A DNA stretch of 64,000 bases from assembly GCA_014323825.1 (NCBI GenBank), contig JACONI010000103.1:1-64000 (forward strand), in the 5' to 3' direction. The notes beneath the pieces are model-generated. The model did no database searches, was not told the origin of the DNA, and was given only the letters and a program-made list of their open reading frames with translations. Shown here piece after piece: positions 63,185 to 64,000 of this stretch; the stretch's first letter is position 1; every line of letters begins with the position of its first letter. The translations under genes were made by a program, and so were the position numbers. The DNA comes from Ekhidna sp. GTDB taxonomy: Bacteria > Bacteroidota > Bacteroidia > Cytophagales > Cyclobacteriaceae.

Positions 63185-63216
63185 CTTGACAATTAAATAT
63201 TTTTATACTTACTTTG
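63185..63216 (+). promoter_or_regulatory. Putative promoter upstream of the poly-C lipoprotein locus (-33 cTTG, N20, -7 TTACTTTG)
   Basis: CTTG at 63185-63188, 20-bp spacer, TTACTTTG at 63209-63216 (imperfect match to TTTG / TAnnTTTG), 49 bp upstream of ATG 63265. Confidence 0.45.
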
Positions 63217-63264: not shown

Positions 63265-64000
63265 ATGATGTTTTATTTTATTATACCCCCCCCCCCTATA
63301 TATAGTTAAACTTTTTCAGAAAGTTCTCCTATTTATCAGCGTGGGGTTGACGCTAACCGCTTGCGGGGGGGACGACGATAAGCCGGTAGAAATAAAATTA
63401 GCTTTAGCTGAAACTTCGCTTTCCATTTCTGCCGATGAACTGGAGCCGACAGACATAGCCGTCACGGCGAGCGGAGGGGAATGGACGGTAACCTCTAATG
63501 TAAACTGGCTAAGCGCTGAAAACGTGGACAATAAAACACTTCGCGTGAGTTATGACAAAAATAACAAAGCGGAACCTCGCGAAGGGATCATTACCGCTTC
63601 TATTGGAGAAGTCAGCGGTACGATCAACGTAACGCAAGAAGGCGTAAAGTTAGAATTAGACAAATCTTCCCTTTCCATTCCCGCAGATGCGCTGGCTCCA
63701 ACGGATATAGCCGTTACCGCAAGCGGAGGGGAATGGACGGTAACCTCTAATGTAAACTGGCTAAGCGCTGAAAACGTGGACAATAAAACACTTCGCGTGA
63801 GTGCTAACGCAAATATGACCGCCGACTCACGCAAGGGCAGCGTCACGGTTTCATTAGGGGAGGTGAAAAAGTCCCTTAACGTTACGCAAGCCGGTGCGCC
63901 TGAAGACAATACGGAACAAAACACGGCAAACACCGCACCGAACATTGCCGATCAAACCTTCTCCGTGCCCGAAGATGCGATGAACGGAACCGAAGTCGGA
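63265..64000 (+). CDS. BACON-domain lipoprotein with a following cadherin-like domain, 3' truncated by window edge; start codon out of frame in this sequence (C11 tract), possibly phase-OFF
   Basis: Downstream frame (from 63269, no ATG): ...VKLFQKVLLFISVGLTLTACGGDDDKPVEIKLALAETSLSISADELEPTDIAVTASGGEWTVTSNVNWLSAENVDNKTLRVSYD... (two BACON domains), then 'APNIADQTFSVPEDAMNGTEVG' (cadherin start). With C10, ATG 63265/63268 reads straight into it. Confidence 0.75.
63286..63296. repeat. Homopolymeric C11 tract (simple sequence repeat)
   Basis: ttata-ccccccccccc-tatatata; lies between ATG 63265/63268 and an out-of-frame signal peptide. Confidence 0.9.
63470..63802. repeat. Exact 81-bp direct repeat within the BACON domains (63470-63550 and 63722-63802, 252-bp period)
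   Basis: agcggaggggaatggacggtaacctctaatgtaaactggctaagcgctgaaaacgtggacaataaaacacttcgcgtgagt in both. Confidence 0.9.

Follow-up and report, generated by a model that had tools for sequence, protein, structure and literature searches.

A C11 tract upstream of a BACON-domain lipoprotein gene: a probable slipped-strand contingency locus, one of about sixty, in an Ekhidna sp. genome

Introduction

DNA inversion is the usual explanation for surface variation in Bacteroidota. Contingency loci that vary by repeat slippage have been catalogued in other bacteria: 115 genes are given for Neisseria meningitidis (PMC5084427), 29 tract-associated coding regions are reported in Helicobacter canadensis (PMC2823697), and poly-G contingency tracts occur in haemoglobin receptors (PMC3786947). 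In Candidatus Mycoplasma girerdii, a large family of BspA-type repeat proteins is switched by short-repeat slippage, some BspA-like copies being OFF with low-frequency ON variants, and a tendency to OFF has been reported for its genes, BspA-like ones included (PMC5476646). Within Bacteroidota, the nearest report in the literature searched is a statement made in passing on the FSD proteins of Ornithobacterium hominis, a set of at least 20 adhesin paralogs for which a putative mechanism of phase variation is mentioned (PMC13183296); the FSD repeats break assemblies (PMC10353427). The literature searched, which left out most subscription journals, contained no account of arrays of poly-C slippage tracts in this phylum, so that absence is not proven.

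Here we describe a gene at the end of a 64,000-nt stretch of Ekhidna sp. DNA (hereafter the window; positions 1 to 64,000, forward strand, of contig JACONI010000103.1, assembly GCA_014323825.1). As in the contingency loci of Neisseria, Campylobacter and Helicobacter, a C/G homopolymer lies in the 5' coding region of surface genes, its length sets the reading frame and many loci are involved. We consider it highly probable that the window gene is a slipped-strand translational phase-variation (contingency) locus, one of about sixty in the genome. In the absence of read, second-strain, transcript or protein data, we infer that the gene is transcribed, that its product is exported, that it switches and that switching is of benefit.

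Results

Leader, tract and frame of the window gene

The gene opens on the forward strand with tandem ATG codons (63265/63268) which, followed by FYFII, form a leader ORF of seven codons (63265..63285; ATG ATG TTT TAT TTT ATT ATA), here termed class A. The leader runs directly into the C11 tract (63286..63296), after which the sequence continues with TATATATAGTTAAAC. With 11 C, the ATG frame is closed by a TAA (63307..63309), yielding the OFF product MMFYFIIPPPPIYS. The frame with the lipoprotein leader peptide reads YIVKLFQKVLLFISVGLTLTAC, then GGDDD after the lipobox cleavage mark. This long frame begins at the final C of the tract, from where its translation is LYIVKLFQKVLLFISVGLTLTAC, then GGDDDKPVE; the signal peptide it contains, YIVKLFQKVLLFISVGLTLTA (63299..63361, + strand), has no start codon of its own. 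The lipoprotein frame is closed upstream by a TGA at 63266, no ATG precedes the lipobox in that frame of the window sequence, and the sole alternative starts, GTG 63341 and TTG 63347, lie 5-7 residues before the lipobox cysteine and leave no basic region. Since the 21 nt of the leader, the n cytosines and 2 further nt must add up to a multiple of three, n = 10 or 13 corresponds to ON and n = 11 or 12 to OFF; in the assembly (11 C) the window gene is OFF, whereas a tract of 10 or 13 C would link the leader to the lipoprotein in one continuous frame.

Direct reading and frame arithmetic thus agreed with the initial annotation, which had proposed a C11 between the start codons with their five following codons and an out-of-frame lipoprotein leader, an early TAA, no usable start in the lipoprotein frame, and one continuous protein at 10 or 13 C. 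Its statement that the ORF list holds only antisense ORFs at this place did not stand: a truncated sense ORF starting at GTG 63341 appears when open ends are allowed.

The tract is the sole C-run longer than 6 in the window, the second longest being 6, and 0.004 runs of at least 11 C are expected under a first-order model of the window. The class to which the gene belongs, defined by a leader of MMFYFII or MMYSFII type and a BACON/cadherin lipoprotein, has 15 gapless members; at the tract position, the gapless paralogs of this class A have 11-13 C or 20 C. Upstream, a promoter-like pair composed of TTG (63186-63188), 20 nt and TTACTTTG (63209-63216) was read directly on the same strand (63186..63216). 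This putative promoter resembles the -33/-7 pattern of Bacteroidota, and comparison of upstream regions found similar sequences in the other class A paralogs.

Mature lipoprotein and second homopolymer

The mature surface lipoprotein predicted from the long frame (63362..64000, + strand) starts with CGGDDDKPVE and contains, according to Pfam, two BACON domains (approximate positions 63479-63640 and 63698-63898), after which a cadherin domain begins. Matches were obtained with PF13004 (BACON; 1.2e-15, 57.7 bits against a cut-off of 25, so that the protein counts as a BACON-domain protein), PF19190 (BACON_2; 2.2e-11) and PF00028 (cadherin; 1.6e-6). The frame is still open where the contig ends (64113). 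The C-GGDDD following the lipobox resembles the SDDDD/K-(D/E)2 export signals (PMC5080379), without the polar or positive residue.

Immediately behind the lipobox cysteine codon (63362-63364) lies a G7 run (63365-63371; together 63362..63371, + strand), already put forward as a second potential slippage site. In a paralog on contig C24, 98% identical, the run is G9 instead of G7, and the sequence downstream of it is out of register; the second tract therefore also varies, in support of that proposal.

Reading frame through the tract

Class B leaders (30 distinct sequences of 32 codons, 96 nt) have an open ATG frame in 29 of 30 cases, and all 30 contain stops in both other frames. Leader substitutions amounted to 50 synonymous and 145 nonsynonymous, the random expectation being 59:220; purifying selection on the leader amino acids is weak, so that the openness of the frame counts more than the sequence itself. 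Locked copies were also encountered: in one of them (L246) a single frame reads MNTSDKKRLKHIMNTENTSYMPPKGLYEPNLM-PPTPLP-YILSIKSTILVLLVFFLSLQG, three others (L245, L249, L250) have long leaders and no tract, and in paralogs with short or interrupted tracts leader and signal peptide are read continuously. Such locked in-frame copies are what is expected if the intended reading passes through the tract.

Tracts in this and other genomes

The genome of the window (G000; 3.0 Mb in 122 contigs) has 108 C/G runs of at least 9, against 7.8 expected from the base statistics of the window, and ranks first in tract count among the 398 Bacteroidota genomes sampled. The search proposed at the outset, for other C/G tracts of at least 9 near the starts of signal-peptide genes, thus gave a positive result, most of the 108 being found there. 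Within the genus, eight genomes have 0-2 such tracts and a ninth (G009) has 37. About 100 stretches around the tracts of the window genome were examined, comprising 104 tracts of at least 9, 67 with gapless flanks. A short in-frame leader is joined to a secretion signal, usually with no ATG between, by 58 of these 67; the rest are five antisense views of poly-G in SusC-like receptors and four others.

Tract count by itself was rejected as evidence. The runner-up genome (G372) has 107 tracts and another (G080) 35, and the contigs that hold those sampled from both are short, of low complexity and devoid of the gene layout; the leader-tract-signal peptide layout was also absent at loci sampled from G256, G280, G344, G216, G312, G149 and G185. 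It is the arrangement that matters, the number alone proving little. The sister genome G009 conserves the layout only partially and with different leaders: a BACON lipoprotein (L181, contig C348) has an unrelated leader and C19-C21 tracts, and other tracts (L185, L167, L190) lie upstream of a normal ATG. The two tract-rich genomes, G000 and G009, are smaller, at 3.0 and 2.7 Mb, than the eight others of the genus (4.2-5.6 Mb), a size that may hint at host-associated life. A mismatch-repair-deficient mutator as the cause of the tracts was rejected, MutS and MutL being both full length in the window genome.

Leader classes and target proteins

Six recurrent leader classes, from 7 to 32 codons long, were recognised. 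The largest reads MSTLNKKRSKDIMNTKNTSHTLPKGLYGLNLM, prolines, then YSLILSSKSTFLVISTLLLTLFGQAQTEPKPFITTW, and its proteins are DUF285 (BspA-like) repeat proteins with type IX sorting tails, as identified with Pfam. In SusC-like TonB receptors (L071, L077, L121, L141 and L067, on G000 contigs C10, C14, C92, C113 and C7, respectively), a G11-G13 run is placed between ...RLTLADA and VILVFSYVGFETQEV, within the carboxypeptidase-like domain at the N-terminus. The frame is kept with G11 (L071, L077, L121) and lost with G12 (L141).

Leader and signal-peptide classes are mixed across the tract at four gapless joints (L138, L144, L118, L094), which suggests module exchange. Two lipoprotein leaders of class C22 (L130 and L142) have a G run of their own upstream of the C tract (GGGGGG and GGGGG, respectively), a possible extra slippage site. 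A methyltransferase-like gene (L133; contig C104, near 4357, - strand) is split by a mid-gene C11 into out-of-frame halves of 102 codons upstream and 176 codons downstream; the name rests on the upstream half as read by eye, since the downstream half has no Pfam match.

Variation of tract length

Eight pairs of near-identical tracts (no more than 3 mismatches in the 60 nt on each side) were available, and in six pairs the two lengths are exactly one C apart; these are paralogs in one assembly, not cells. One pair consists of an OFF copy with 12 C (L114) and an ON copy with 11 C (L140), and near-identical SusC copies likewise have 12 (L141, OFF) and 11 (L071/L077, ON) residues in the tract. Slippage-type length variation at surface genes, as had been postulated, is thus matched by near-identical paralogs that differ by one C, some of them ON versus OFF. 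Tracts were found within 30 nt of a contig end in 12 of the 100 listed (0.24 expected) and next to an N gap in 26 of 104. This excess fits variable lengths, but equally repeated leaders that confuse the assembler, and is only suggestive. All lengths derive from a single assembly, and short-read assemblies can miscount by one.

State of the OFF genes

Among 50 scored genes, 9 were in frame and 41 out of frame. Shuffling the lengths among genes gave a mean of 16.7 ON genes (P = 0.011); related paralogs were counted as independent, and their kinship weakens the P value. The required n mod 3 differs by class (0, 1 or 2), so that the shortage of ON genes does not simply reflect a single favoured length, and an ON count below chance indicates that the frame matters. 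Downstream frames are uninterrupted for up to 1032 aa, and the median dN/dS across 136 OFF-OFF paralog pairs, mostly of class B, is 0.36. Such purifying selection means that OFF genes are not pseudogenes and must be expressed at times.

Discussion

The window gene meets those criteria of a homopolymer contingency locus that a sequence can address: a repeat in the 5' coding region that is longer than chance would give, a toggle of one unit to an early stop, no usable start downstream of the tract, and OFF alleles that remain functional, as indicated by the dN/dS of about 0.36 in OFF-OFF pairs. Polymorphic repeat length is seen between near-identical paralogs of one genome, not between strains or cells. 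The original interpretation, a surface lipoprotein phase variable by slippage, is therefore supported by the paralog lengths, the locked frames and the genome-wide recurrence, switching in the cell being inferred. In the mechanism we propose, transcription would come from upstream and ribosomes would begin constitutively at the ATG before the tract, the C number of which would be altered by replication slippage. An in-frame length would give a lipoprotein whose signal peptide follows a short leader and 3-4 prolines, and which is predicted to be exported to the cell surface; with the two other lengths, translation would stop few codons past the tract. About sixty loci would drive BACON/cadherin lipoproteins and DUF285 proteins in this manner, the SusC-like receptors representing an in-gene poly-G version, and the benefit of switching might consist in escape from immunity, phage or grazers.

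Errors are frequent in long runs of C, and many of the tracts are situated at the end of a contig or beside an N gap; the true tract could have 10 or 13 C, with the gene always ON and the other tracts similarly miscounted. We regard such an assembly or sequencing error as very improbable, because the tract is found again in about sixty genes, which belong to several families and have sequence-specific flanks, because the lengths are biased against the ON frame while random error would be neutral, and because G372, despite a comparable count and poor contigs, lacks the leader-tract-signal peptide layout. The excess of out-of-frame genes (41/50) might instead reflect a graveyard of pseudogenes, in which tracts fixed paralogs in the OFF state and these are now decaying; some copies are indeed broken, for example L258, in which TAG follows an interrupted tract, and the C12/C84 matches, which carry one internal stop. 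Decay is hardly credible, however, with downstream frames open over such lengths, with the low OFF-OFF dN/dS and with ON copies present in several classes.

The same OFF bias would be tolerable if output leaked, that is, if slippage of RNA polymerase or ribosome on C11 produced a constant low level of protein at any tract length, and transcriptional slippage on long homopolymers is known from the poly-A of Buchnera (PMC2831843). Recoding of this kind has little to recommend it here, since a recoding site would keep one length, whereas the DNA tract differs in length between near-identical copies, and since locked ON copies exist. The few gapless joints that mix classes leave room for a tract that serves mainly as a recombination seam for swapping promoter-leader modules between surface genes; most joints, however, are class-faithful, and swapping needs no length-unstable homopolymer and leaves the frame-dependent lengths unexplained, so that we hold a mainly recombinational role to be very improbable. 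Slipped-strand phase variation remains our reading of the locus. A broader proposal, which is tentative and rather doubtful at present, is that of a system for coat diversity, in which a few interchangeable promoter-leader-polyC modules would be common to dozens of surface genes, the tract acting both as switch and as exchange seam, with lengths selected to be mostly OFF and cells showing a small, shifting subset of proteins.

If phase variation is confirmed, a clonal population could carry many different coats, and Bacteroidota would have a second, recombinase-free route to surface variation, at meningococcus scale and including SusC-type nutrient receptors. Annotation is prone to miss or truncate such genes, and short-read assemblies break at their tracts.

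When compared with the known systems, the mechanism is most likely that of the homopolymer contingency loci already described, all defining features that can be tested on a sequence being met. The differences from Neisseria, Campylobacter and Helicobacter lie in the host, a member of Bacteroidota, in the dozens of paralogs served by few common leader-tract modules, and in the targets, namely BACON/cadherin lipoproteins, DUF285 proteins with T9SS tails and SusC-like receptors. Candidatus Mycoplasma girerdii is a mollicute and uses dinucleotide repeats, whereas here C homopolymers are found in Bacteroidota and lipoproteins and SusC-like receptors are involved as well; the FSD loci of O. hominis, for which the texts consulted specify no mechanism, differ in having noncoding repeats of about 450 bp and another protein family. 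With the DNA inversion of Bacteroides the present loci have in common surface heterogeneity in the same phylum, but inversion employs a site-specific recombinase and inverted promoters. As far as the literature searched shows, what is new for the lineage is the scale of the arrangement and its common leader-tract modules.
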